A stretch of DNA of 64,000 nt from Flavobacterium flabelliforme (lineage in GTDB: Bacteria; Bacteroidota; Bacteroidia; Flavobacteriales; Flavobacteriaceae), in assembly GCF_017948675.1 (NCBI RefSeq), contig NZ_JAGFBU010000002.1:372001-436000 (forward strand), in the 5' to 3' direction. The position numbers were made by a program, and so were the translations under genes. The first letter of the stretch is position 1; each line of letters starts with the position of its first letter. This document shows, in pieces, positions 12,017-25,673 of the stretch. Under the pieces are notes generated by a model. That model was not told where the DNA came from and did not search any database. It saw only the letters and a list, made by a program, of their open reading frames with translations.

Positions 12017-14869
12017 ATGCCAAAAGATACATCGATAAAATCCGTCTTAATAATAGGTTCAGGTCCTATTGTAATTGGTCAAGCGTGCGAATTTGATTAT
12101 GCAGGATCTCAATCTGCTCGTTCTATTCATGAAGAAGGAATTGAAGTTATTCTAATCAATTCTAATCCTGCAACCATCATGACCGATCCAACTATGGCCG
12201 ATCATGTTTACTTGAAGCCATTAACGACTAAGTCTATTATTGAAATACTAAAAGAACATCCTCAAATCGATTCTGTTTTACCTACAATGGGTGGACAAAC
12301 TGCTTTAAACTTGTGTTTAGAGGCGGATGAAAAAGGAATTTGGAAGGATTTTGGTGTAAAAATGATAGGTGTTGATGTAAATGCCATTAATATTACCGAA
12401 GACAGAGAGCAGTTCAAACAATTGCTTAAAAAGATAAATGTACCTTCTGCACCTGCAGAAATTTGTACATCATATTTAAGAGGAAAAGAAATTGCACAAG
12501 AATTTGGTTTCCCTTTAGTAATTCGTCCTTCGTTTACCCTTGGAGGAACTGGAGCTGCGATTGTATATAAAAAAGAAGAATTTGACGAAAAACTTACCTA
12601 CGGTTTAGAAATGTCACCTATTCATGAGGTTTTGATTGACAAAGCTTTGATGGGTTGGAAAGAATATGAGTTGGAATTGTTGAGAGATAAAAACGATAAT
12701 GTGGTAATTATCTGTTCTATCGAAAACATGGATCCAATGGGAATTCATACTGGAGATTCGATTACTGTTGCGCCAGCGATGACTTTATCTGACACGACTT
12801 TCCAAAAAATGCGTGACTATGCGATTTTGATGATGCGTAGCATCGGAAACTTTGCTGGAGGTTGTAATGTGCAGTTTGCTGTTTCGCCAGACGATAAAGA
12901 AGATATTGTAGCGATTGAAATCAATCCTCGTGTGTCTCGTTCTTCTGCTTTAGCATCAAAAGCGACGGGTTACCCAATTGCAAAAATTGCTTCTAAACTA
13001 GCTTTAGGATACAATTTAGATGAATTACAAAACCAAATCACCAAATCGACTTCTGCTTTATTCGAGCCGACTTTGGATTATGTGATTGTGAAAATTCCAC
13101 GTTGGAACTTTGATAAATTTGAAGGTGCTGACAGAACTTTAGGACTTCAAATGAAATCCGTTGGTGAAGTAATGGGAATTGGACGTTCGTTCCAAGAAGC
13201 GTTACACAAAGCGACGCAATCATTAGAAATCAAAAGAAATGGTTTAGGTGCTGACGGAAAAGGATACACGAACTACGAACAAATTATCGAGAAACTGACT
13301 TATGCAAGTTGGGATCGTGTTTTTGTGATTTATGACGCAATTGCAATGGGAATTCCTTTGAGTCGTATTCATGAAATCACTAAAATAGATATGTGGTTCT
13401 TGAAACAATATGAAGAACTTTATACTTTAGAAAAAGAAATTTCAAATTATAAAGTAGAAACGTTGCCAAGAGAATTGTTGTTAGAAGCCAAACAAAAAGG
13501 GTTTGCTGACAGACAAATTGCGCACATGATGGGTTGTTTAGAAAGTCAAGTACACAGTTTGCGTGACGTGATGAACATCAACCGTGTGTTTAAATTAGTA
13601 GATACTTGTGCGGCAGAATTTAAAGCAAAAACACCATATTACTATTCTACTTTTGAAGCGGAAATAGAAAAAGCAGACGGAACACGCTACGTAGATAACG
13701 AAAGTGTAGTTACAGATAAAAAGAAAATTATCGTTCTTGGATCAGGTCCAAATAGAATTGGTCAAGGAATCGAGTTTGATTATTCTTGTGTACACGGCGT
13801 TTTGGCTGCGAAAGAATGTGGTTACGAAACAATTATGATCAACTGTAATCCAGAAACAGTTTCTACTGATTTTGATACAGCAGATAAATTATACTTCGAG
13901 CCAGTTTTCTGGGAGCATATTTACGATATTATCCAGCATGAGAAACCAGAAGGGGTTATCGTGCAATTAGGTGGTCAAACGGCTTTGAAATTAGCGGAGA
14001 AACTATCTAAATACGGAATAAAAATTATTGGAACTAGCTTTGATGCTTTGGATTTAGCCGAAGATAGAGGACGTTTCTCTGAATTATTAACCGAATTAAA
14101 CATTCCTTTCCCACAATTTGGAATTGCTGAAACGGCTGACGAAGCTTCTGCTTTAGCGGATGTTTTAGATTTTCCATTATTGATTCGTCCTTCTTATGTG
14201 TTGGGTGGTCAAGGAATGAAAATTGTAATCAACAAACAAGAACTGGAAGAGCACGTAATCAATTTATTGAAAACTATTCCAGGGAACAAATTACTTTTAG
14301 ACCATTATTTGGATGGAGCGATTGAAGCAGAAGCGGATGCGATTTGTGATGGTGAAAATGTGTATATCATAGGAATTATGGAGCATATCGAACCTTGCGG
14401 AGTGCACTCTGGAGATAGTAATGCGACTTTGCCACCGTTCAACTTAGGGGAATTTGTAATGCAACAAATAAAAGACCATACTAAAAGAATTGCTTTAGCG
14501 CTGAAAACAGTTGGTTTAATCAACATTCAGTTTGCCATTAAAGATGATACGGTTTACATCATCGAAGCGAATCCTAGAGCGTCTCGTACGGTTCCTTTTA
14601 TCGCAAAAGCATATGGAGAACCTTATGTGAATTATGCTACTAAAGTAATGTTAGGACACAACAAAGTAACGGATTTCACTTTTAATCCACAATTAAAAGG
14701 ATACGCAATCAAACAACCGGTTTTCTCTTTCAGCAAGTTCCAAAATGTAAATAAAGCATTAGGACCAGAAATGAAATCAACCGGAGAAAGCATCTTGTTT
14801 ATTGACGACTTAAAAGACGATCAATTTTACGAATTGTACTCTAGAAGAAAAATGTATTTAAGTAAATAA
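12017..14869 (+). CDS. carB: Carbamoyl-phosphate synthase large subunit
   Basis: The protein has 950 residues and two homologous ATP-grasp halves. The first starts VLIIGSGPIVIGQACEFDYAG, and the second repeats it as IIVLGSGPNRIGQGIEFDYS at about residue 573. Each half has the ATP-grasp metal motif (EINPRVSRSSALASKATGYP and EANPRASRTVPFIAKAYG). CarB makes carbamoyl phosphate for arginine and pyrimidine synthesis together with CarA, which is not adjacent. The protein is shorter than the usual 1070 or so residues. It ends soon after the second ATP-grasp half (YSRRKMYLSK), so the C-terminal MGS-like allosteric domain is absent. Short CarB forms occur in Bacteroidota. Its 3' end is duplicated twice downstream. 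Confidence 0.96.
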   Translation: MPKDTSIKSVLIIGSGPIVIGQACEFDYAGSQSARSIHEEGIEVILINSNPATIMTDPTMADHVYLKPLTTKSIIEILKEHPQIDSVLPTMGGQTALNLCLEADEKGIWKDFGVKMIGVDVNAINITEDREQFKQLLKKINVPSAPAEICTSYLRGKEIAQEFGFPLVIRPSFTLGGTGAAIVYKKEEFDEKLTYGLEMSPIHEVLIDKALMGWKEYELELLRDKNDNVVIICSIENMDPMGIHTGDSITVAPAMTLSDTTFQKMRDYAILMMRSIGNFAGGCNVQFAVSPDDKEDIVAIEINPRVSRSSALASKATGYPIAKIASKLALGYNLDELQNQITKSTSALFEPTLDYVIVKIPRWNFDKFEGADRTLGLQMKSVGEVMGIGRSFQEALHKATQSLEIKRNGLGADGKGYTNYEQIIEKLTYASWDRVFVIYDAIAMGIPLSRIHEITKIDMWFLKQYEELYTLEKEISNYKVETLPRELLLEAKQKGFADRQIAHMMGCLESQVHSLRDVMNINRVFKLVDTCAAEFKAKTPYYYSTFEAEIEKADGTRYVDNESVVTDKKKIIVLGSGPNRIGQGIEFDYSCVHGVLAAKECGYETIMINCNPETVSTDFDTADKLYFEPVFWEHIYDIIQHEKPEGVIVQLGGQTALKLAEKLSKYGIKIIGTSFDALDLAEDRGRFSELLTELNIPFPQFGIAETADEASALADVLDFPLLIRPSYVLGGQGMKIVINKQELEEHVINLLKTIPGNKLLLDHYLDGAIEAEADAICDGENVYIIGIMEHIEPCGVHSGDSNATLPPFNLGEFVMQQIKDHTKRIALALKTVGLINIQFAIKDDTVYIIEANPRASRTVPFIAKAYGEPYVNYATKVMLGHNKVTDFTFNPQLKGYAIKQPVFSFSKFQNVNKALGPEMKSTGESILFIDDLKDDQFYELYSRRKMYLSK

Positions 14870-14915
14870 TACTTGGATTATATATATCGAAAAAGCCCCT
14901 TTATTGGGGCTTTTT
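14742..14915 (+). repeat. carB 3'-end repeat, copy A (within the intact gene)
   Basis: This stretch covers the last 42 or so codons of carB, the stop, a TACTTGGATTATATATATCG linker and the terminator. Near-identical copies follow at 15695-15838 (copy B, offset 921) and 16651-16824 (copy C, offset 1909). Identity runs through codons, stop and terminator alike. The unit was therefore duplicated as DNA and not kept for its peptide. Confidence 0.95.
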
Positions 14916-14916
14916 G
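14890..14916 (+). terminator. Intrinsic terminator of carB
   Basis: The perfect stem AAAAAGCCCC (14890-14899) / GGGGCTTTTT (14906-14915) has a 6-nt loop, 20 nt after the carB stop. The same hairpin is repeated in copies B and C. Confidence 0.93.
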
Positions 14917-14922
14917 CATTTA

Positions 14923-15069
14923 TTATGGTTTTACTCTAACTATTTTATTATCCTTAAGAATGACTAGTTCACTATTTGATTTCTTTTTGAATTCGATTAA
15001 TTTTTCATATACTTTGCTCATTCCATCAATTATTTTTTGTTGGTTCAGCGATCTCTTATATTCTTTCAT
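14923..15069 (-). CDS. 48-residue protein coupled to the zeta-type kinase; candidate partner or antitoxin
   Basis: The small frame encodes MKEYKRSLNQQKIIDGMSKV followed by a basic, helical stretch and the end ILKDNKIVRVKP. Its ATG at 15069 overlaps the end of the zeta-type gene by 14 nt, which implies translational coupling. It fills the space between that gene and the carB terminator. No family is recognised. Its position next to a zeta-like kinase makes it a candidate antitoxin or accessory subunit. In the classical pair, however, epsilon precedes zeta and is longer, so this is inference only. Confidence 0.6.
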   Translation of the reverse strand: MKEYKRSLNQQKIIDGMSKVYEKLIEFKKKSNSELVILKDNKIVRVKP

Positions 15070-15640
15070 TCCAATTTTTTTTTAAGTTATTGAATTTAAT
15101 AGGACTTAAAATTTTCATTTCACTAACGACAGATTTTTCAGCAATTAACTCCGGTACTCCAAATGAATTATCAAAAATAAGTAGTTCGTCCGCAATATCA
15201 ACATAAATTTCAAAAAGATTTTTAATACCGTTTTTATATCTTCTTTTTATAACGTCTGTATCGATGTTGTGACCACCTTCAAGAACTCGTGTTCTGACTC
15301 TTTCAATTGCTAAATCTACATTTTCTAACCAAAAAAACAAAAGAGTTACATTATAGTTTTGCTTTTTTGCCTTTATAATTTTTCCTCTATAGCTTTTAGT
15401 AGCTAGAGTAGTTTCAAAAGCAAATGTTTGTTCTGCATCTAGTAGTTCATTGATTCTTTTTATCATTATTCTTCCGGCTTCAAAGGCAACTTTCTCAGGT
15501 TGAAAAGGAGATAAACCTTTGGCAATTTCATCAGCGTTTACAAATTCTTTACACCTTAATATATCAGGTAAAATCGTAAACGAAGCAGTTGTTTTGCCCG
15601 CTCCATTGCAACCTGCTATTATGTAAAGTTTCTTGTTCAT
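15056..15640 (-). CDS. Zeta-toxin-type P-loop kinase
   Basis: The protein has 194 residues. The Walker A motif AGCNGAGKTT begins at about residue 9. VNADEIAKGLSPF follows, then the long-helix segment AFEAGRIMIKRINELL and the AFETTLATKSY strand, all typical of zeta-toxin and related kinases. Later segments LFFWLENVDLAIERVRTRVLEGGH and RRYKNGIKNLF also fit. Zeta toxins phosphorylate UDP-GlcNAc, and chromosomal relatives may phosphorylate other targets. The gene is the cargo of a carB-tail module, reads toward carB and overlaps a 48-residue gene. Whether it is toxic here is untested. Confidence 0.85.
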   Translation of the reverse strand: MNKKLYIIAGCNGAGKTTASFTILPDILRCKEFVNADEIAKGLSPFQPEKVAFEAGRIMIKRINELLDAEQTFAFETTLATKSYRGKIIKAKKQNYNVTLLFFWLENVDLAIERVRTRVLEGGHNIDTDVIKRRYKNGIKNLFEIYVDIADELLIFDNSFGVPELIAEKSVVSEMKILSPIKFNNLKKNWNERI

Positions 15641-15694
15641 TTATCAAAGATAATTCATTTTGAGTTCTGATTAATGAATCAATTTTTATTAAAA

Positions 15695-15838
15695 AAATCA
15701 ACAGGAAAAAGCATTTTGTTTATTGACGACTTAAAAGACGATCAATTCTACGAATTGTACTCTAGAAGAAAAATGTATTTGAGTAAGTAATACTTGGATT
15801 ATATATATATCGAAAAAGCCCCTTGATTGGGGCTTTTT
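15695..15838 (+). repeat. carB 3'-end repeat, copy B (orphan tail with terminator)
   Basis: The copy repeats carB from AAATCAAC onwards: the last 32 or so codons, stop, linker (with one extra TA) and terminator. It shares CAGGAAAAAGC, CAATTCTACG and TATTTGAGTA with copy C against copy A, so B and C are closer to each other than to the intact gene. There is no start codon context, and it follows the start of the zeta-type gene by about 55 nt. Confidence 0.93.
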
Positions 15839-15840
15839 GT
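15813..15840 (+). terminator. Duplicated carB terminator, copy B
   Basis: The stem AAAAAGCCCC (15813-15822) / GGGGCTTTTT (15829-15838) has a 6-nt loop, TTGATT, that differs from copy A. On the minus strand it also gives a hairpin followed by U residues, so it may end transcription of the YiaA-like gene downstream. Confidence 0.88.
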
Positions 15841-15892
15841 TTTTTCTAAATCAGTTTTATCTGCGCTGGTATTCTTATTAGGAATAAGCTAT

Positions 15893-16291
15893 TTATTGTT
15901 TTGGTTCTGTAATTGTCATATTATCTCTTGTGTTTTTTTGAACTGCAATCGCTCCAAAAATCGCCAATAAAAATGCAAAACCATAAAATCCTTTTTCACT
16001 TGGTAATAAAGTTGCGTTCCATAGTCCAACGATTAATAACACGATAGATAAAATTGTTCCAAACCAACAAATACCATAATAAATATCGGTTACAGGAAAG
16101 CCTTCAATTCTATCTCTAACACTTTTTTGAAGTGATATTACTGAAAAAAGACCAAACATTAGAACTGTAAAATAGTAGCCTATTTCATTTAGTAACATTT
16201 CTGAACGCCATAGTCCAACTAAGTAACCGATCATTCCCGCCCCTAAGGCCACCCAAGAAGCTGCTACGAAAGCATTTGAAGTTTTTTGCAT
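15893..16291 (-). CDS. YiaA/YiaB-like inner membrane protein
   Basis: The protein has 132 residues and four hydrophobic segments arranged as two similar halves. [20 protein letters not shown]...[25 protein letters not shown] is matched by [20 protein letters not shown]...[25 protein letters not shown]. This is the YiaAB two-helix repeat. Such proteins sit in the inner membrane, and their role is unknown. The gene lies alone between carB-tail copies B and C, reading toward carB. Confidence 0.85.
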
Positions 16292-16650
16292 TGTTTTTAT
16301 TTATTTAATATGTGAATTATTATCTGTTGCTACAATTATTGCAAAGCTTAGTTTTTAGTAAATGAGGTTTTTTATCTGTTTCTTTTAAATCTTTTGTTAC
16401 CTGCTGCATTACATAATTGAATGCAAAAAGATTACTTTGAACTTTTAAAAGCAAAAAAGTAAAGCCACTTAAAATTTTTCTAAGGCTTATTTTTTTGGGT
16501 AAATATAGTCGATTTATCGTACAAAAATAAATTTTTAAATAATTTCTTAAAACTCATTGATTTGAATTTATTTATCCAAAAAACTATAGGCCTAACTAAC
16601 TTTTAATTCAGAAATTTCATGAGTTATATCATCCTATTTACGCATGTTTT
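16292..16650. other. Non-coding stretch between the YiaA-like gene and carB-tail copy C
   Basis: This AT-rich stretch holds no frame I can support and no RNA gene. It should contain the promoter of the YiaA-like gene (minus strand). A TATTTTTG box is readable at 16529-16522 on the minus strand, but without a spaced TTG. Confidence 0.4.
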
Positions 16651-16824
16651 AAAATGTAAACAAAGTATTAGGACCAGAAATGAAATCAACAGGAAAAAGC
16701 ATCTTGTTTATTGACGACTTAAAAGACGATCAATTCTACGAATTATACTCTAGAAGAAAAATGTATTTGAGTAAATAATACTTGAATTATATATATCGAA
16801 AAAGCCCCGTTTGGGGCTTTTTTT
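16651..16824 (+). repeat. carB 3'-end repeat, copy C (orphan tail with terminator)
   Basis: This is the longest orphan copy. Homology to carB begins at AAAATGTAAA (equivalent to 14742) and runs to the end of the terminator. It contains the same last codons (FIDDLKDDQFYELYSRRKMY) with scattered substitutions, mostly shared with copy B. Sequence upstream of 16651 does not match carB, so the junction is sharp. Confidence 0.94.
16799..16824 (+). terminator. Duplicated carB terminator, copy C
   Basis: The stem AAAAAGCCCC (16799-16808) / GGGGCTTTTT (16813-16822) has a 4-nt GTTT loop and a longer T run than the other copies. Confidence 0.88.
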
Positions 16825-17166
16825 GTTGGTTGAAACTATATGATTTTGTTTTATGACGTATTCAACAGTAGTTTTTAATGAAATAATTATTTAGAACTAA
16901 TAGCAGTTTTTCAGTTATTTCAGCCAAATAATAGAATTCAATTTATAGGTAAACATCACCCTTAGTTTGTCACGCTGGAAGCGTCTCAACAAACATGAGC
17001 AACTTTGCTGCTAAAGCTCTAGCGAAGAAAATTGTACAATGAATTGTTAGTTAGAGTTTTTGCATTATGGTTTTTTACGTCTAATTGCAATACTGTTTTG
17101 CATTTTTAACCATTAAGTGATTTAAGTAAAATTAAAACTTAAACAAACTTAACTTTGTTATTGCTT
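16825..17166. other. Non-coding stretch after the carB-tail array
   Basis: No gene is seen. At about 16967-16996 the sequence TTTGTCACGCTGGAAGCGTCTC resembles a widespread bacterial intergenic repeat (GTCATGCTGAGCGAAGTCGAAGC type) with its centre deleted. That resemblance is from memory. Confidence 0.35.
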
Positions 17167-17775
17167 TTAAGCACTATTTCCTAGACCATTTGGTAACGGT
17201 CTGTACGCGTAATAATGCAAGACTTCTTCTATGGCTGTTGCCAAAGCTTGGTTTATAGGAAGTAGCGTAGTAGCGAGTCTATTGTCTATTTGTGACAGTT
17301 GCATATAATAATCTGTAAAAACAGGAACGTAAAGTCCTTTACTGATCGCTTCTTCGGCGGTGTTGTAGTTTTCTTGTTGGCCTTCTTTAATTATCTTACA
17401 AGTGGCTAAACGGAGCTGTCCATATTTATCTCTACTGGCTGCATATCCAAAAAGTCTACAAATTAATCCTCTATAGCGATAGTCGCTACAACTTCCCATA
17501 TTTCTATCAATAAAAGAAATCGGACGATATAAATGGCAGTTGGAATCTGATTTTTGTTGGAGTTGCATCAACATATCTTCGGCTTCTCCATTTAAAAATA
17601 AATGAAATGCCCACGGTAAAAACTCTAATGGCGAGGCATCTATTTCTGGAGTCGAACAACACTTACCGCATCCAGCAATACAATGCAAATGTGTTTCTGA
17701 CTGGAATACAGCAATTTCTTTTTCAAGACGGTCGAACAACTCTTCAACCAATCGAACCTTATGCTCTATAGCCAT
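17167..17775 (-). CDS. YkgJ-family cysteine-cluster protein
   Basis: The protein has 202 residues and conserved Cys positions of the CxxCxxxCC cluster type: HCIAGCGKCCSTPEI at about residue 32, then SCSDYRYRGLICRLFGY at about 95 and ATCKI. Such proteins are thought to bind zinc or an iron-sulfur cluster, and their function is unknown. It is monocistronic and lies on the left flank of the defence island. Confidence 0.85.
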   Translation of the reverse strand: MAIEHKVRLVEELFDRLEKEIAVFQSETHLHCIAGCGKCCSTPEIDASPLEFLPWAFHLFLNGEAEDMLMQLQQKSDSNCHLYRPISFIDRNMGSCSDYRYRGLICRLFGYAASRDKYGQLRLATCKIIKEGQQENYNTAEEAISKGLYVPVFTDYYMQLSQIDNRLATTLLPINQALATAIEEVLHYYAYRPLPNGLGNSA

Positions 17776-18185: not shown

Positions 18186-19292
18186 TCAATAAGTTTTCAT
18201 TTCAAAAAAATAATTAATTCGAATATAAAATTCAATTAATTTTTGACTGTCATTTGTGGACAGTAAATAATTTTCATTAAAATAATTTATGTCATTACTA
18301 TTTGGAATGTATTCATTTGAAAATCTATTCTTAATAATTTCAAAAATCAATTTTTGAATTGATTCATCTGAATCAAAATATTTTTTAAAAAGCTCTTTAT
18401 TAGAAAGTTTATCATAATTAACTAAATATTTACATGATTGTTCTAGTAATAAATTAAATTCATTCAACTTTTTCCCATATCCTGGCATTTTTGAGTTTCT
18501 TAAAGTGAATTCGTTTTCTAAAAATGGAGGTAGATTAATATTAAAAAGTAAAGAGTCAAGAATCAGATATAATTCATTTAAAACTATTTTGAAATTTATT
18601 TTCAAATTTTGAAGTTCTTTTTTTAAAGTTGAAATTAAATCATTTAATAATACAACACCTTTTATCTCATTATAAGGACTTGAATATTTTGTATTCCAAA
18701 ATTTAGCGTAATGAAATAATACTAGCTTAATTTCAAATTCTGTATTACTTTCAATTAATTTTAATCCTATCCATTCCGTTAGTTTTTTTACTATTGGATT
18801 TCGATTAACACTTTCTTCTAACCAATCGTTGTTTGTTAAATTTAATTGTTCAGTTAAAATAATTTGGGTTAGATTTCCATTGTTTTTTATTGAATCTAAA
18901 ATCAAAAATTTATCTTGGAAATCAATTGGTTTGTTTTTAATTAATTGTTCACTAATGACAGATAGTAATTGTTTATTAGAATCTTCAAAGTAAATGGAGT
19001 ATAAAATTGATTCAAATTCAAAATCTTTTAATAAATCTATAACTTCTAAATAATCTCTTGTTTTATTTTGTAACTCATTTTGAGATGAAGTAAATAAGTT
19101 AAAATCTTCATTGTTAAAATCATCATTTTCAAGTTCTTCTTCAGAGCTTTTTAAATACTCTTTTAATCTTTTTAAGGTGTCTTTTTTTAAATATGTATTA
19201 TAATGAAATATCTTCTGCTCTAAAGACATTCCTCTCATATCACTATGAAACTTGATTTTAATGAAATTCTCATTTTTAGAAAAAAAACTCAT
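18186..19292 (-). CDS. Uncharacterised protein of the DISARM-like operon, 368 residues
   Basis: I do not recognise a family. The protein is largely alpha-helical and rich in Leu, Asn, Lys and Glu, with no signal peptide, membrane segment or Cys cluster. No HxK(x)4D motif is present, so it is not the phospholipase-D-type DrmC that normally occupies this place after drmB. Its ATG overlaps the drmB stop by 4 nt (ATGA), so it is part of the operon and probably part of the system. Confidence 0.72.
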   Translation of the reverse strand: MSFFSKNENFIKIKFHSDMRGMSLEQKIFHYNTYLKKDTLKRLKEYLKSSEEELENDDFNNEDFNLFTSSQNELQNKTRDYLEVIDLLKDFEFESILYSIYFEDSNKQLLSVISEQLIKNKPIDFQDKFLILDSIKNNGNLTQIILTEQLNLTNNDWLEESVNRNPIVKKLTEWIGLKLIESNTEFEIKLVLFHYAKFWNTKYSSPYNEIKGVVLLNDLISTLKKELQNLKINFKIVLNELYLILDSLLFNINLPPFLENEFTLRNSKMPGYGKKLNEFNLLLEQSCKYLVNYDKLSNKELFKKYFDSDESIQKLIFEIIKNRFSNEYIPNSNDINYFNENYLLSTNDSQKLIEFYIRINYFFEMKTY

Positions 19293-21382
19293 TTTATTAA
19301 TTCTTTAAAGAAACCATTATTTTCATCTACTAAAATTCTTCTATCTAAATAAATATTTCTGTGCTCACAGGATGTTTCACTTACAAGACTGCATGAAAAG
19401 CACGATGCAAAATTCAATTCAAATAAACCTTGACCATCAGATTCCCAACACAAAGGATCACTATTACATATAGTTGATCTTATCAATGCACTTTGAATTA
19501 AATTTAATAAGTTTTGTGGTCTAGTTTGCGCAATAAGTCCTCCCATACTTCCTTCAGCTCCTTCAGCTGTGTATATCATGCAACCATACATTTTGTATTT
19601 TTCATCATTTGAGACATAAATTCTTTCGGACAAAGATGCTGTTGGATAACCACATTTGAATTCTAATTCTCGCATAATTAAATGAGCAAAAGTATGTACT
19701 AGATATAACTGCCAATTATTCTCTAATCCATATTTAATAGCACCTTCTGAAAAAGTATCGCTCTTTTGATGTAATTCATATAAATTTTCGTTTACTGATT
19801 CTATTCCTTTGGAATTTGAAAATTTATTAATTAGTTCTTCATTAAAAGAAAAAAAGATTCCCTCTCCGTAATTTTCAACTACCGGATATACGCGAACACT
19901 ATCAGGTTTAGAGCTAAAAATATTTTTCGAGCTAATATTATCGGCATCAGAATCTAAAGGAACAACTCTTGAAAAATCAAGTTGAGCTGAAGTAATTTTC
20001 ATATTATCTATTCTAAGTATTCTTGAAAAATACTTCTCTAAGTCTGAACCACTAATGTTTGCAGTTACATCTTTTACTTTTAAATGCTCAACTTTATCAA
20101 CATTTATTTCATCTTCATCTTTTAGTGCTAAAGCTTTATATTCTTCGAAGCGATATCGTATATCTTTTTCAGAATCTTGAATTTCTTCAACTAAAGAATT
20201 ATTTTGAATTTCAGTCTTTAGCGAAGTGATTATACTATTTATTCTCATTGCCTCTTCGAAATTTTTATCATCCATAGCTAATTCCAAATCACTTTCAAGA
20301 GAATTCAAGCTTAATGTTTTTTCATCTAAGAATAATTCGTCAGGCATATATATACTAGAAAGCATTCTAGAATAGTATAAATTATTTCCTGTTGTTAAGG
20401 CAACCTTCATCGCTTTCGTTGATGAACAATTTTCTAATGGAGGCATTTTAGACCTTGAATTAGAATTGCCAGAATGATATTTAAGTTCACCATTATTAGA
20501 TGTTATGGCTTCCCATGGTTTGTGTCCTGAGCATTTAATTTTCACACTCATCAATCCTTTTAATGAGGTTTGCCTACCACAGTTTTCACACTTTAACCAT
20601 TTGCCATCGAACCCTGATGCATTAGCTGTACTTGAAGTAATTTTAATTACGGCAGTACTAGTGTCATCTGAACCACAACATGGTTGTGATTTAAATAATT
20701 CAATAGATTTTTCAGAATTTATTTCCATAGGAGAATCTGTCCTCCATCTTAAAAATTTTGACCATGGAAAATCACTGATATGACCATGATCACATATTAG
20801 GACAATATTATCTTGAGTTAAATTTGCTATACTATTTTCAGTATTATGTTTTGGAGGAAAGAATTTTGCTCCATATTGATCATCATTTTTCTTGTTTTTA
20901 CACCATTCATTATACCATTCTTTGTAAAACTTGTAGCGTTTACTTTTATCGAAAAATACTTTTGGCATAAAAGAACTATTAATTGCTAATTCATTTCCAC
21001 TATTTTTAATTTTATTAGAAAAATCTTGAACAGCGATATCAGGAATAAGAACTAAATATTTTAATTCAGTTAACCCTTTTCTATTTATTAAAGACTCAAG
21101 TAATCTGGCGTCATTTGAAATACCTATATTGCCGTTTCTCTCTAGTCTTGCTTGTTTTACAACATAATCCTTTATATTCTTTTCTTTTACTCCTGTATCA
21201 ACTGCATCCTTTTGAATATCCAGTATTTTTTTTAAAAAACCCCATTCTTCGATACATGAAATAATGATACTACCATATGCAGTATGTACAATTGAACCAG
21301 GGCCACCATAAGCTGATAAAAGTTTAAATTTACTTATGGCTTCATTTGCTTGTGTATTTTCAAAATATTGTTTTGCTGCCAT
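19289..21382 (-). CDS. drmB: DrmB-like DUF1998 protein of a DISARM-type defence system
   Basis: The protein has 697 residues. Near residues 237-290 it has zinc-ribbon-like Cys groups (QPCCGSDD, LKCENCGRQ, IKCSGHKPW). The C-terminal DUF1998 (MZB) region runs from about 560 to 690: HTFAHLIMRELEFKCG, AEGAEGSMGGLIAQTRPQNL, and the Cys cluster CNSDPLCW...CFSCSLVSETSCEH. DUF1998 is the defining domain of DrmB, which works with the DrmA helicase against phage DNA in DISARM. It lies 4 nt after drmA. Confidence 0.85.
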   Translation of the reverse strand: MAAKQYFENTQANEAISKFKLLSAYGGPGSIVHTAYGSIIISCIEEWGFLKKILDIQKDAVDTGVKEKNIKDYVVKQARLERNGNIGISNDARLLESLINRKGLTELKYLVLIPDIAVQDFSNKIKNSGNELAINSSFMPKVFFDKSKRYKFYKEWYNEWCKNKKNDDQYGAKFFPPKHNTENSIANLTQDNIVLICDHGHISDFPWSKFLRWRTDSPMEINSEKSIELFKSQPCCGSDDTSTAVIKITSSTANASGFDGKWLKCENCGRQTSLKGLMSVKIKCSGHKPWEAITSNNGELKYHSGNSNSRSKMPPLENCSSTKAMKVALTTGNNLYYSRMLSSIYMPDELFLDEKTLSLNSLESDLELAMDDKNFEEAMRINSIITSLKTEIQNNSLVEEIQDSEKDIRYRFEEYKALALKDEDEINVDKVEHLKVKDVTANISGSDLEKYFSRILRIDNMKITSAQLDFSRVVPLDSDADNISSKNIFSSKPDSVRVYPVVENYGEGIFFSFNEELINKFSNSKGIESVNENLYELHQKSDTFSEGAIKYGLENNWQLYLVHTFAHLIMRELEFKCGYPTASLSERIYVSNDEKYKMYGCMIYTAEGAEGSMGGLIAQTRPQNLLNLIQSALIRSTICNSDPLCWESDGQGLFELNFASCFSCSLVSETSCEHRNIYLDRRILVDENNGFFKELIK

Positions 21383-21386
21383 ATTT

Positions 21387-24300
21387 TTATTGTTGAACTG
21401 TTTTTATTACTACTGATGGGTCAATTTCTCTTAATGAATAACCTACCTTCCAGTGATCAGGATAATTATTATCACTTAATCTAATAAATAAAGAATTCAA
21501 ATTCATATCTTTCTTATAAAAGGATAATTCAGGAATAGGTTCACTACCTTGTAATCTTATAAACCAATTATTTAAAAGCCTTTCAACTTTATTATTTAAA
21601 TCTATCAACTCTTCCTCAGATATAATACCATCAACACTTGATTTTACATTATGAGTTCTTGATTTTAAATAATTGTCTAGTTTAATTGCATTGGTTTCAA
21701 TTTCAATAATTTGATTAATAATTATCGCTTTGATTTGATTAATTTTAATATTGCTAATATTACACGCATCTGCATTGTTCATTAGCATCAAAGTCTCATC
21801 ATGTCTAATCATAACTGATAAAAACATTGCTAGGTATCTTTCCATTGCTTTACTTGCAAATGGAGTAACTGAAATTGGTTCTACATAACTGTAAAATTTC
21901 TCGTGAAATTCTTTGTATTTTTGATAGTGTGAAATGTCTCTAGATCTAAATGGATGATGAACAGTAAATACAATTCCTTCTTTACTTCTTGCAACCCTAC
22001 TTGAAGCTTGGATATATTCTGCAATATTTCTGGGCATTGAACTTATTATCATTGTATTGAATCTTGATACATCAATACCAACCGAAATCATATTTGTAGA
22101 TATCACAAACTCTGGAGGATTATTAGAATTTAATTTTAATGTATTACCATCATTTGAAATTAGACTCCATTTTTTTTCAATGTTTGACAGATTAGACTTT
22201 ACATCTTCACCTGTCAATCTTCCAGTAAGTTCTGAATAATCAATGTTACTTTCGTTTCTAATTAGCTTATCTAAAAAGCTCCATAAGACAGTATTTTTTG
22301 TAACAAAATTTACATCTCCGGGTAAATAATGACTTAATTGTGATTGTGTCTTACCAACATCTTTTAGACTATTAAAATAAGATAAAACAGTATGATAATA
22401 ATCAAACACATCTTTATGCTCGTTTATTAACTCAGGTTTTTCAAATATTTCATCATTTGTATAACACTCCTTAAGATATTTTAATCTATGCGTAAGTGAA
22501 ATTGATGCTATCCTTAATTGCATCCAAACTTGTGTTTTACCAACAGGTAAAATCCCTAGATATTTTCGATTTGAAATATATTTTTCATCATTATTTTCAT
22601 CGATATATCTTTCATAATATGCAAAAAACGAATCGTCTGATACTATTCCTTGTTTTGGAAATATTTCAGATCGTCTATTAAATAGAGCAAATATTTGTTT
22701 ATCTGTATTTCTTGTAGTTGCTGTAGAAGTAACTATTTTAGGTTTTATACCATTTTCTGTACATAAGTAATCTATACTTTTTTCAAAAAGTCCTACAGCT
22801 GACCCTAAAGGGCCAAGTAAAAGATGTAACTCATCCTGTATTATTAGTTCTGGTGGTAAAGTGTCATGATTGTATCCTTTTCCAAATAATCTCCTAGAAT
22901 CTTTATTTCTTTCTGAAGTATTTGTGGTTACATTATTTGCTAAAGCAGCAAATTTATCTACCGTCCCAAAAAGTAGTGTCGGAGGGTACTTATAAATATC
23001 CTCATCAAATAATCTTAAAGGTAGGCTAAATTCATTGCTAGGTCTATTTCTTCCCATCCCCTTGAAAGTACAGGATGAATTATTGCAACAAATGTTTAAT
23101 TGATCATTTATTCCATAATTATTTCGTGAAGGTTTACTAGTATGAGAAACATTACTTAATTCTTTATCAATAAATAAATCGCTGCCACACCATGGGCATT
23201 CAGTAAATGGTATATTTGTACTCACTTTTTTGCCGCCTTCAATACAAGCTGCTATTTTCTCAAGTTCTTTCTCCATGCTTGTATCGCTAGAATTACCTGT
23301 TCCTTTCCATTGATTAGGCAATGAGCCAGAACCAACAAATAAACCAATTGTAATTCTCGAAACACCTAGACTATAAGAATTAGGTATTGAAAAACTATCT
23401 TTACGGATGGCTTCTAATGCGCAAATTAACATAGTTGCTCTTTGAAACTGTTGCAATGTTAACAACCTCAATGTATAACGCATTAAAACGGTTGTTCCAG
23501 TACCTCTTTCACCATTGGTAAAACGTCTATATCCAATAACGAATGCAATTATCCCTAAATAGGCTTCTGTTTTACCCCCTCCAGTTGGAAACCAAACTAA
23601 ATCTGCTATCTCATTTCTTTCAGGCCAACCATTGGAAAATATGTTTTCAACAGTTTTGTCGTCTAGATCTGGTCTAACAAATGCATCAATGTTTAGTAGA
23701 ATAAAAGTAATTTGAAATGAACGCCATTTATAATCATTTCCTCCAAGATTTATATTTTTATAAAATTCTTCTGTATTTGAAGTAGGAGTAAAGGGTTTCT
23801 TAATACTATGATGTAATTGCATAAACATAGCTGTATTCATTAGCCTGAATGCAGCCATTGCTTTCGAATCATTACTAATTAATTTAATGTTCCTTAATAA
23901 TCTTATATAATCTTTATCACAAGCTAATAGTTGTTTCTTTAAGAGTTCCTTTTCTTCTCCTTTAAGTAAATTTTCATTATTAAGATTCTTTTGTTTCTCT
24001 TCAATCCAAATTTTGTATTCATTCACAAAATCTTTTAAACCCTGTAAAACATCACTATCCGTAACGTCGGATAAAGTTGAAAGGTATTGCATAGATAAAA
24101 TAGAATCATTTTCAATTCTTGAAACTATTTTTCCATTAACAATTTTACTTGGTTTAAAATCTACTTTTGGCGTTTCTTGCTCTGGAAGAAATTCTGTTGT
24201 TATAAACTTACATTTGTTAACATTACCCCAATTTACAGATGTGTTGTATCCTTCACCAAAGTCATGGAAATTTCTGTATAGTAGCTTATTAAAGTTATCT

Positions 24301-25673
24301 TCTTCATCAAAATCTAATAATTGAGGAGGATTATATTGCTTTAGTGTATTTTCTTTAATCTCGTCAACTTTTAATTGAATACCAAAATATGCCTTTAAGT
24401 TTGCTTCATCTTTTTTGTTTAATTGAGGAGGCTCATTTTCCTTAAGAATAATATTTGCCTTATTAATCAATAATATCTTAACAAATATTTCTTCATTTTT
24501 ACGAATATATTGTACCGAATATATTAAATCTGAAACCTCTTTAATGTTATTATCGATAACTTGATTATTTAATCTAAATATTTTACTGGTTCCATCATGT
24601 TTTGGTAAAGAGATTGAAATGTTTTCAAAAGTTTTTGCCTCCCAAATTGGAGAAGAATTTCTTGGTTTATATACAGATTTTAAATCCGTTACATAATTTT
24701 TTAACTGATTGAATATTTCAATTTCCTTTATAAGTTTTTTATAATATGAATAATTAGATAAATCTTCTTTTAGTTTACTTTTAATATAATTAATTATGCT
24801 GTTATCATAAAGTGAAGCTACATTTTTATATTCATTACCGCTATAATTTATTGATTCTGAAATTGAATAAAACTGCAAATCATAATCACCTTTAATACCA
24901 TAATATATAACACCATTTTTTTGTTTTAGTTCGACTATTTCTGTTTTGAAAACATCACCTATAGTTTTTAAAAGAGTTGCTTGGAAATAATTATTTAAAT
25001 GAATATAATCTACATCATAAATATTATTCTTATTAATTTCTTGATTAAGACATATAAAAAGGTTGTTATTTTTTCTAATTGATGTAAATAAGGGTTTAAA
25101 GTAATTCTCAATTGCAATTTCAATTTCATTATCATATTCAGAAACTATACAAGATAGTTTACTGCTAAAACATTCCTTTTTATTTATATTATGATATTTT
25201 CTAAATGAAACACTCACGGTCAAATCATCTTGCAAATTAGTTTCTTTACCTACAACAAATGAGAGACCAAATGAATTGGGATAGTTCTGTTGTTTACTAA
25301 CTAAACTTTCCTCAGTATTGTCAATATTTCTATCATCATCTCCACCCTTTTCTATATCCTCTGTATCTGGATTTTCTCCATCAATATCCGATTCTGAAAA
25401 TTTCTCTTTGAGTTGTGTTTCCGATCCTTTTGACACCCTTGTTTCAGGAAAAAGAATTGCAGAACTATATTGATAAGCAGGAACCTCAGCTAAAACCTCA
25501 CTCTTGTTATCTATTGGATTTACATTTTTGACTTTAAAGTCAATTCCGTTAAATTCACTTGTATCCCATTTTTCTATAAAGAAAAAGCGGTTGTTAAAAG
25601 CACCAGGTCCAATTATCTGCTCACGAACAAATAACTCAAGACTATTTCTTTTTTTTCTAAAATCATTCATCAA
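21387..25673 (-). CDS. drmA: DrmA-like SF2 helicase of a DISARM-type defence system
   Basis: The protein has 1428 residues. The helicase core shows Walker A FPTGGGKTEAYLG (about 690), the DExH box IIQDELHLLLGPLG (about 945), motif III TSTATTRN (about 980), and the second RecA-like domain with SVGIDVSRFNTMIISSMPRN and QASSRVARS (about 1197-1225). A four-Cys insert (ECPWCGSD...ICCNNSSC, about 824-860) lies between the ATPase motifs. The long acidic N-terminal region is unassigned. The layout matches DrmA, the DNA-translocating helicase of DISARM. The ATG overlaps the preceding gene by 4 nt. Confidence 0.88.
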   Translation of the reverse strand: MMNDFRKKRNSLELFVREQIIGPGAFNNRFFFIEKWDTSEFNGIDFKVKNVNPIDNKSEVLAEVPAYQYSSAILFPETRVSKGSETQLKEKFSESDIDGENPDTEDIEKGGDDDRNIDNTEESLVSKQQNYPNSFGLSFVVGKETNLQDDLTVSVSFRKYHNINKKECFSSKLSCIVSEYDNEIEIAIENYFKPLFTSIRKNNNLFICLNQEINKNNIYDVDYIHLNNYFQATLLKTIGDVFKTEIVELKQKNGVIYYGIKGDYDLQFYSISESINYSGNEYKNVASLYDNSIINYIKSKLKEDLSNYSYYKKLIKEIEIFNQLKNYVTDLKSVYKPRNSSPIWEAKTFENISISLPKHDGTSKIFRLNNQVIDNNIKEVSDLIYSVQYIRKNEEIFVKILLINKANIILKENEPPQLNKKDEANLKAYFGIQLKVDEIKENTLKQYNPPQLLDFDEEDNFNKLLYRNFHDFGEGYNTSVNWGNVNKCKFITTEFLPEQETPKVDFKPSKIVNGKIVSRIENDSILSMQYLSTLSDVTDSDVLQGLKDFVNEYKIWIEEKQKNLNNENLLKGEEKELLKKQLLACDKDYIRLLRNIKLISNDSKAMAAFRLMNTAMFMQLHHSIKKPFTPTSNTEEFYKNINLGGNDYKWRSFQITFILLNIDAFVRPDLDDKTVENIFSNGWPERNEIADLVWFPTGGGKTEAYLGIIAFVIGYRRFTNGERGTGTTVLMRYTLRLLTLQQFQRATMLICALEAIRKDSFSIPNSYSLGVSRITIGLFVGSGSLPNQWKGTGNSSDTSMEKELEKIAACIEGGKKVSTNIPFTECPWCGSDLFIDKELSNVSHTSKPSRNNYGINDQLNICCNNSSCTFKGMGRNRPSNEFSLPLRLFDEDIYKYPPTLLFGTVDKFAALANNVTTNTSERNKDSRRLFGKGYNHDTLPPELIIQDELHLLLGPLGSAVGLFEKSIDYLCTENGIKPKIVTSTATTRNTDKQIFALFNRRSEIFPKQGIVSDDSFFAYYERYIDENNDEKYISNRKYLGILPVGKTQVWMQLRIASISLTHRLKYLKECYTNDEIFEKPELINEHKDVFDYYHTVLSYFNSLKDVGKTQSQLSHYLPGDVNFVTKNTVLWSFLDKLIRNESNIDYSELTGRLTGEDVKSNLSNIEKKWSLISNDGNTLKLNSNNPPEFVISTNMISVGIDVSRFNTMIISSMPRNIAEYIQASSRVARSKEGIVFTVHHPFRSRDISHYQKYKEFHEKFYSYVEPISVTPFASKAMERYLAMFLSVMIRHDETLMLMNNADACNISNIKINQIKAIIINQIIEIETNAIKLDNYLKSRTHNVKSSVDGIISEEELIDLNNKVERLLNNWFIRLQGSEPIPELSFYKKDMNLNSLFIRLSDNNYPDHWKVGYSLREIDPSVVIKTVQQ

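Follow-up and report, generated by a model that had tools for sequence, protein, structure and literature searches.

The carB 3' end as a probable integrase-free accretion hotspot in Flavobacterium

We analysed a 64-kb stretch of a Flavobacterium genome (genome G000, contig C21, positions 372001-436000; hereafter the window), the genus name resting on named relatives with matching loci. In this window, the 3' end of carB, which encodes the carbamoyl-phosphate synthase large subunit, is followed by two further copies of itself (tails), with small cargo genes between the copies. The carB 3' end is probably an integrase-free accretion hotspot in Flavobacterium, the units of which move by recombination within the tails. 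Comparison across the genus shows units that recur, differ and, as judged from their sequences, move between species while the local tails stay, and one distal tail that is mosaic. The features concerned are given below with their positions in the window; positions within tails are counted from the carB stop.

12017-14869, plus strand: carB, carbamoyl-phosphate synthase large subunit, the host gene; intact, 950 aa (CPSase_L_D2, E = 8e-93)
14725-14916, plus strand: tail A, the functional carB 3' end with linker and terminator; hairpin 14890-14915, -16.4 kcal/mol
14923-15069, minus strand: 48-aa partner of the zeta kinase; stop codon directly past terminator A
15056-15640, minus strand: zeta-toxin-like kinase (PF06414, E = 1.1e-8)
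15641-15694, minus strand: short 5' flank or promoter region of the zeta cassette, identical to that of F. weaverense
15695-15844, plus strand: tail B, orphan copy of carB -95 to +52 with terminator; hairpin 15813-15838
15893-16291, minus strand: YiaA-like membrane protein (PF05360, E = 1.5e-38; NF008482, 201 bits vs. a cut-off of 150)
16634-16822, plus strand: tail C, orphan copy of carB -144 to +46 with terminator; hairpin 16800-16823
17167-17775, minus strand: CxxCxxCC (YkgJ-like) protein, 3' of tail C; carB neighbour in genome G010

An earlier note on this DNA had described the carB 3' end and its terminator as present three times, which was confirmed by a repeat search and a whole-genome DNA search. 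Its further observations, i.e., similarity running through codons, stop, linker and hairpin alike, unit lengths of 921 and 988 nt, and minus-strand cargo consisting of a zeta-type kinase with a 48-residue partner and a YiaA-like protein, proved equally sound. In a fixed frame, the repeat family lies at 14725-14916, 15646-15837 and 16634-16825, giving spacings of 921 and 988; the copy at 15646-15837 matches at 68% in this frame, its true homology beginning at about 15695. The whole-genome search with the carB tail returned the three copies at E = 7.8e-104, 8.9e-58 and 6.3e-72, with tail B matching at 94% over query positions 50-192 and tail C at 91% over 1-191, and found no fourth copy in the genome (next best match E = 0.03). 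The hairpin is kept in all three tails (-16.3 to -16.4 kcal/mol), and tail B, which carries an E-to-K change, belongs to no complete gene. The claim that tails B and C share substitutions against A holds at -87, -83, -42, -9 and +48, whereas tail B sides with A at six positions (-33, +7, +31, +34, +47 and +50), mainly in the linker and terminator. Read along the minus strand, the order is the YkgJ-like gene, tail C, YiaA, tail B, the zeta kinase with the 48-aa gene, and tail A; the zeta pair, YiaA and the YkgJ-like gene end 7 nt, 54 nt and (third hairpin) 343 nt, respectively, behind a carB hairpin.

A carB-end pattern was matched in 357 of 398 Flavobacterium genomes (G numbers, drawn evenly from the genus; L numbers denote loci), with a single match in 334 of the 357 and at least two in 23. 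In 18 of these 23 the matches share one contig; the other five (G046, G160, G169, G227, G317), with matches on different contigs, were left out. A reversed-pattern control gave 0 in all rows, and the pattern misses more decayed tails, e.g., those of G103. Within the order, extra tails occur in 3 of 23 matching genomes of the same genus and in 0 of 114 other matching genomes. The loci from named relatives (L078-L157) are the best 80 of 557 confirmed matches rather than a random sample, and species groups were judged by carB identity. The zeta kinase with its 48-aa partner lies between tails in this genome, F. weaverense, F. fryxellicola, G063 and G096, with a remnant in G042. Other cargo between tails comprises an OLD-like nuclease (G103), a RES/Xre pair (L132), thioredoxin-like, SIR2-like and YkgJ-like genes (G106), a PIN/DUF6364 pair (F. 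urumqiense), a DUF5117 protein (F. glaciei), a helix-turn-helix protein with a partial match to the PD-Lambda-2_B model (G141), an AlbA_2 protein (G291) and lipoproteins. Membrane transporters are found on the plus strand in G272 and G367, as is a T5orf172 protein in G028, where merely 36 nt of tail are copied; in most but not all cases the cargo runs convergent to carB. Toxin-antitoxin and defence genes abound in it, though alongside others, and the gene downstream of carB varies by species (YkgJ-like, YiaA, GNAT, others). The arrangement of the window is thus not fixed in all relatives nor its cargo invariant between species, and the idea of repeated insertion at the end of a housekeeping gene, regenerating that end each time, is supported with species-variable cargo. 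Separately, G139 has a degenerate carB tail with terminator (L053, 8183-8304) beside unrelated genes, far from its carB (720182 vs. 2863293).

Synonymous divergence (dS) shows three shared cassettes to be clearly younger than carB in the species pairs concerned. First, carB of this genome and of F. weaverense is 88.3-91.7% identical over eleven 240-nt windows (dS 0.589), whereas the zeta cassette is 97.2% identical (754/776 nt; zeta dS 0.107), and this high-identity tract reaches from terminator A to the first nucleotides of tail B. The DNA downstream is 87.8% identical (2967 aligned columns, 1098 gap columns), and that upstream of carB aligns poorly (61.7%). Second, the transporter unit of G272 and G367 is 94.5-98% identical over +300 to +1290, less so at its edges, with a dS of 0.119, whereas their carB genes are 80.1% identical (-460 to -160) with a dS of 1.6-2.9; the 199-codon dS of this pair is distorted by a one-codon length difference, and the corrected values were used instead. 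Third, the lipoprotein unit of G370 and G224 has a dS of 0.282 vs. 0.674 for carB. In G367, moreover, the distal tail is mosaic, following the distal tail of G272 from -218 to about -190 and then mostly its own carB to the terminator; one breakpoint fits 54 of 61 informative sites, which 0 of 5000 shuffles reach in a test that treats sites as independent.

The five carB-borne zetas form one clade (100/99) in a tree of 30 zetas, despite wide differences between the carB genes beside them. Of the 398 genomes, 96 contain zeta relatives, and the twelve non-carB loci examined adjoin other genes. The 48-aa gene adjoins zeta in 30/30 zeta loci fetched, and the kinase has a dN/dS of 0.07-0.16 across ten species pairs.

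F. weaverense has one orphan tail, whose 5' flank resembles that of tail B here (97.7%; control 47.6%) and whose 3' flank resembles that of tail C here (81.5%; control 45.1%). These matching flanks suggest that the YiaA unit was inserted within a tail which the common ancestor with F. weaverense already had, as an intra-tail crossover would give. The YkgJ-like gene is the direct carB neighbour in G010 and sits behind the single orphan tail of F. weaverense. YiaA lies at most 110 nt from the carB stop in 9 of 120 carB loci examined, often with DUF4252 behind it, and a YiaA homologue is present in 15 of 60 relatives searched (this genome counted). In other Flavobacterium species, YiaA counts among the ordinary neighbours of carB, and the YiaA unit of the window therefore looks imported from a relative's carB locus. 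The description of the cargo as foreign-looking in the earlier note accordingly needs qualifying, in that the YiaA gene is of an ordinary kind at carB whereas its unit does look imported.

We propose the following mechanism, in which a unit would consist of cargo, a carB tail copy and a terminator, placed between carB and the native neighbour. Because units are bounded on both sides by carB-end sequence common to the genus, general homologous recombination within the tails could insert, exchange, stack and delete them and would leave carB and its terminator intact, along with the local downstream gene. RecA would presumably perform these crossovers. The first capture of new cargo may occur within the final ~20-600 nt of carB, by an illegitimate joint or a template switch, with homology-facilitated illegitimate recombination and re-replication from a sister copy as candidate routes. 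Exchange of units by recombination is well supported by the comparisons above. Recombination with carB alleles of related strains had been one of two routes suggested earlier, and it is favoured by the recent identity confined to cassettes, by the mosaic tail and by searches with six integrase queries that found no intact integrase between tails (see below).

A simpler history would have the carB end duplicated in tandem long ago, once or a few times, and inherited vertically, the intervening genes being gained or lost by unrelated events. The orphan tails of G042 and G063 are indeed degenerate and old, and zeta is old in two pairs, i.e., G096/G063 (zeta dS 0.548 vs. carB 0.737) and this genome/F. 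fryxellicola (0.942 vs. 0.833). However, tail starts and cargo differ between genomes, three shared cassettes are younger than carB, and most matching genomes have a single match, so that we regard this history as very improbable.

The duplicated tails start at about -20, -32, -35, -56, -60, -61, -67, -68, -73, -81, -82, -86, -87, -95, -101, -126, -134, -144, -149, -223, -225 and -586, the last being the longest duplicated tail with 651 aligned nt; some of these starts are blurred by decay, and the shortest may represent terminator similarity only. No common core was seen at the 5' junction of the tails in an alignment of zeta-tail junctions and in the boundary lists. Starts ranging from ~-20 to -586 point to the absence of the fixed core that a site-specific recombinase would leave. 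The other route of the earlier note, a mobile cassette class acting in trans in the manner of integrative elements at tRNA genes, finds no support in tails that start ~20 to 586 nt before the stop. The same observation bears on a more general possibility, namely that site-specific integrative elements resembling cis-mobilizable elements (CIMEs), integrase-less and accreted, use the carB 3' end as attB, with a tyrosine recombinase in trans or lost. Tandem integrase-less units, each restoring the gene end, do resemble accretion; F. urumqiense (L157) has an integrase remnant between tails (+5525 to +5659), and an intact tyrosine integrase lies behind carB in L144 (+842 to +2059). However, the 10 kb around the L144 integrase yielded no second tail, the distal tail of G367 has an internal breakpoint, and the tail sequence was unmatched in plasmid and phage records. 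Six integrase queries from G000 found no intact tyrosine integrase between tails; the F. urumqiense remnant was the only match among the earlier loci with tails in cis, and L254-L261 were without a match. G000 has six PF00589 genes, and the only one on the contig of the window is XerD-like and lies outside it (C21:354429). We consider the integrative-element explanation unlikely.

Integrons touch this hotspot at two loci. The tail-bounded array of G106 includes an attC-like repeat (74 bits, E = 8.8e-15; L064, 14997-15126, about +827 to +956 from carB), placed at the 3' terminus of the SIR2 gene. In G028 (L060, carB +230 to +7712), the gap between carB and the YkgJ-like gene holds five attC-like repeats and an integron-like integrase, together with a gene pair that we take to be ParDE-like. 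Because of these repeats, the hotspot evidently receives integron cassettes too. Away from carB, attC-like arrays (TAACG...GTTA, ~130 nt, borders GTTATGAGAAATGC/GCACTTCTCATAAC) carry zeta with the 48-aa gene in L233, L240, L244, L245 and L253 (G294, G320, G307, G120 and G214, respectively), and these arrays are apparent chromosomal integrons in Flavobacterium. G000 has one attC-like repeat near an integrase on C32 (L159, 549-670).

An integron-related capture, in which an integron integrase would accept the terminator or tail of carB in place of an attC/attG site, could draw on these zeta-bearing arrays, on the integrase and repeats of G028, on the repeat behind the SIR2 gene of G106, and on the integrase of the same family that G000 encodes on another contig. 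The C32 integrase of G000, however, scores below both relevant cut-offs (TIGR02249, 203.6 vs. 265; NF040815, 217.4 vs. 220), and no attC-like match at E <= 0.1 was found with model R1 in the 64-kb window or at the three further carB zeta loci covered (L087, L055, L059). The carB repeats are, moreover, plain carB sequence of variable length, and we therefore judge such a capture to be improbable. The cassette edges were also considered as integron edges, the edges of the carB zeta unit approximating those of attC-borne ones. Since they amount to the gene pair with a minimal promoter, without a GTTATGAG-type border, they were not counted as evidence.

The duplication of the gene end is largely specific to carB. 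Among 980 open reading frames (ORFs) of at least 90 aa in 1.2 Mb of G000, a copied coding end with terminator around cargo was found at carB only; the other matches were short copies around terminators, adjacent repeats, paralogues and the repeat-rich region C10:254-277 kb. Among 1208 ORFs of L078-L157, the longer intergenic end copies are those of carB (L118, L087, L094, L157), with shorter or weaker ones in L132, L099 and L095. One clear non-carB end copy was found (L103), with short ones in L098, L117 and L143, plus paralogue pairs. A dienelactone-hydrolase-like gene in L103 of F. xueshanense has its 3' end copied ~2.6 kb downstream, beside carB (+1422 to +1551 and +4175 to +5065), and we regard this as a second gene end behaving like that of carB. 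In L262 and L263 (G079 and G264), zeta is bounded by direct terminator copies of 46-52 nt that are 88-100% identical, its neighbours presumably being an outer-membrane-protein-like gene and hflX; their relative L296 has a single similar hairpin at that place, and others have unlike hairpins. These loci are possibly a terminator-only version of the carB-tail process. The notion that the carB end is itself a constrained or swept DNA site was rejected, as the last codons show no elevated synonymous conservation. Across 37 carB genes in register out of 74 extracted, 2-fold identity is 0.65 in codons 926-950 vs. 0.56-0.83 in other 25-codon bins, and 4-fold identity in the last codons is 0.44, a value based on just 3 codons. 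Downstream of the hotspot, the window contains a DISARM-like (defence island system associated with restriction-modification) pair of DrmB- and DrmA-like genes at 19289-25673 (PADLOC, E = 9e-59 and 2.4e-174); the DrmB-like gene and an adjoining 368-aa gene are common to F. weaverense and this genome.

Several points weigh against an integrase-free hotspot driven by recombination in the tails. All comparisons are between species, and none is between strains of one species. The two older zeta pairs given above, this genome/F. fryxellicola and G096/G063, speak for no recent transfer. Only 10 of 22 scored orphan tails find their closest match in the linker and terminator of their own carB, a scoring that excluded G106, L261 and the second short tails of G103 and G368. 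The local tails are near whole in the pairs this genome/F. weaverense and G272/G367, which would require crossovers near the cassette edges or later homogenising conversion. An unfamiliar recombinase could escape the six queries and a Pfam search of part of the cargo, and an integron cassette can be part of a tail-bounded array, as the G106 repeat indicates. An excerpt of PMC7965970 states that one laboratory test found no natural competence in F. johnsoniae, with homologues of competence genes reported.

With these points weighed, we still take the integrase-free hotspot to be the probable reading, and on a more tentative level, at somewhat less than even chances, gene-end cassettes may represent an undescribed class of mobile unit that uses a housekeeping gene end with its terminator as recombination site, such that general recombination alone would give integron-like behaviour. 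This bears on the question of how small genes for toxin-antitoxin systems and defence, which lack mobility genes of their own, come to occupy the same chromosomal hotspots in different species. The carB locus offers a worked case, in which dS contrasts show single cassettes moving between species and the mosaic tail marks a recombination joint. A literature search of titles and abstract openings returned no description of carB tails or of this hotspot, a result that does not establish their absence from print.

Accretion of CIMEs and integrative and conjugative elements (ICEs) at gene 3' ends produces tandem integrase-less units, each restoring the gene end. The carB units share these traits, whereas searches for integrases and cores found neither a constant att core nor a partner integrase, and one distal tail is mosaic. 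Integron cassette arrays, and clusters of attC sites lacking integron-integrases (CALINs), consist of small genes, often toxin-antitoxin genes, each followed by a repeat. The carB units likewise contain small genes that are each followed by a repeat, and zeta with the 48-aa gene is a cassette elsewhere in the genus, whereas in the window the repeat is gene-end sequence rather than attC and the array is without an integrase. The carB hotspot is classed neither as an integrative element nor as an integron, since the searches revealed no constant core and, within the window, no attC sites. Homology-facilitated illegitimate recombination is described, in an excerpt of PMC3240628, for linear DNA in competent bacteria and for E. 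coli conjugation. A homologous anchor at one end with an illegitimate joint at the other could create a new unit and would fit the variable 5' junctions; unlike the process in that excerpt, the carB locus is a recurrent natural hotspot with the anchor duplicated.

The minimal mobile elements of Neisseria are reportedly treated by Saunders and Snyder in 2002. Such an element is defined, in an excerpt of PMC8627216, as variable DNA between two conserved genes with homologous recombination as the sole transfer mechanism; the excerpt of PMC2649163 also mentions them. The carB hotspot likewise has variable content beside a conserved gene, without mobility genes and with exchange that homologous recombination would explain, and its gene content differs between species at one place. 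It departs from the definition in that carB is constant but the downstream gene varies, so that the pair of conserved flanking genes is lacking; carB alone gives the homology, and its end is duplicated with each unit. Because the duplicated end of one gene supplies both flanks, units can stack, which sets them apart from minimal mobile elements, and we regard the carB hotspot as a variant of the minimal mobile element, the nearest known kind.

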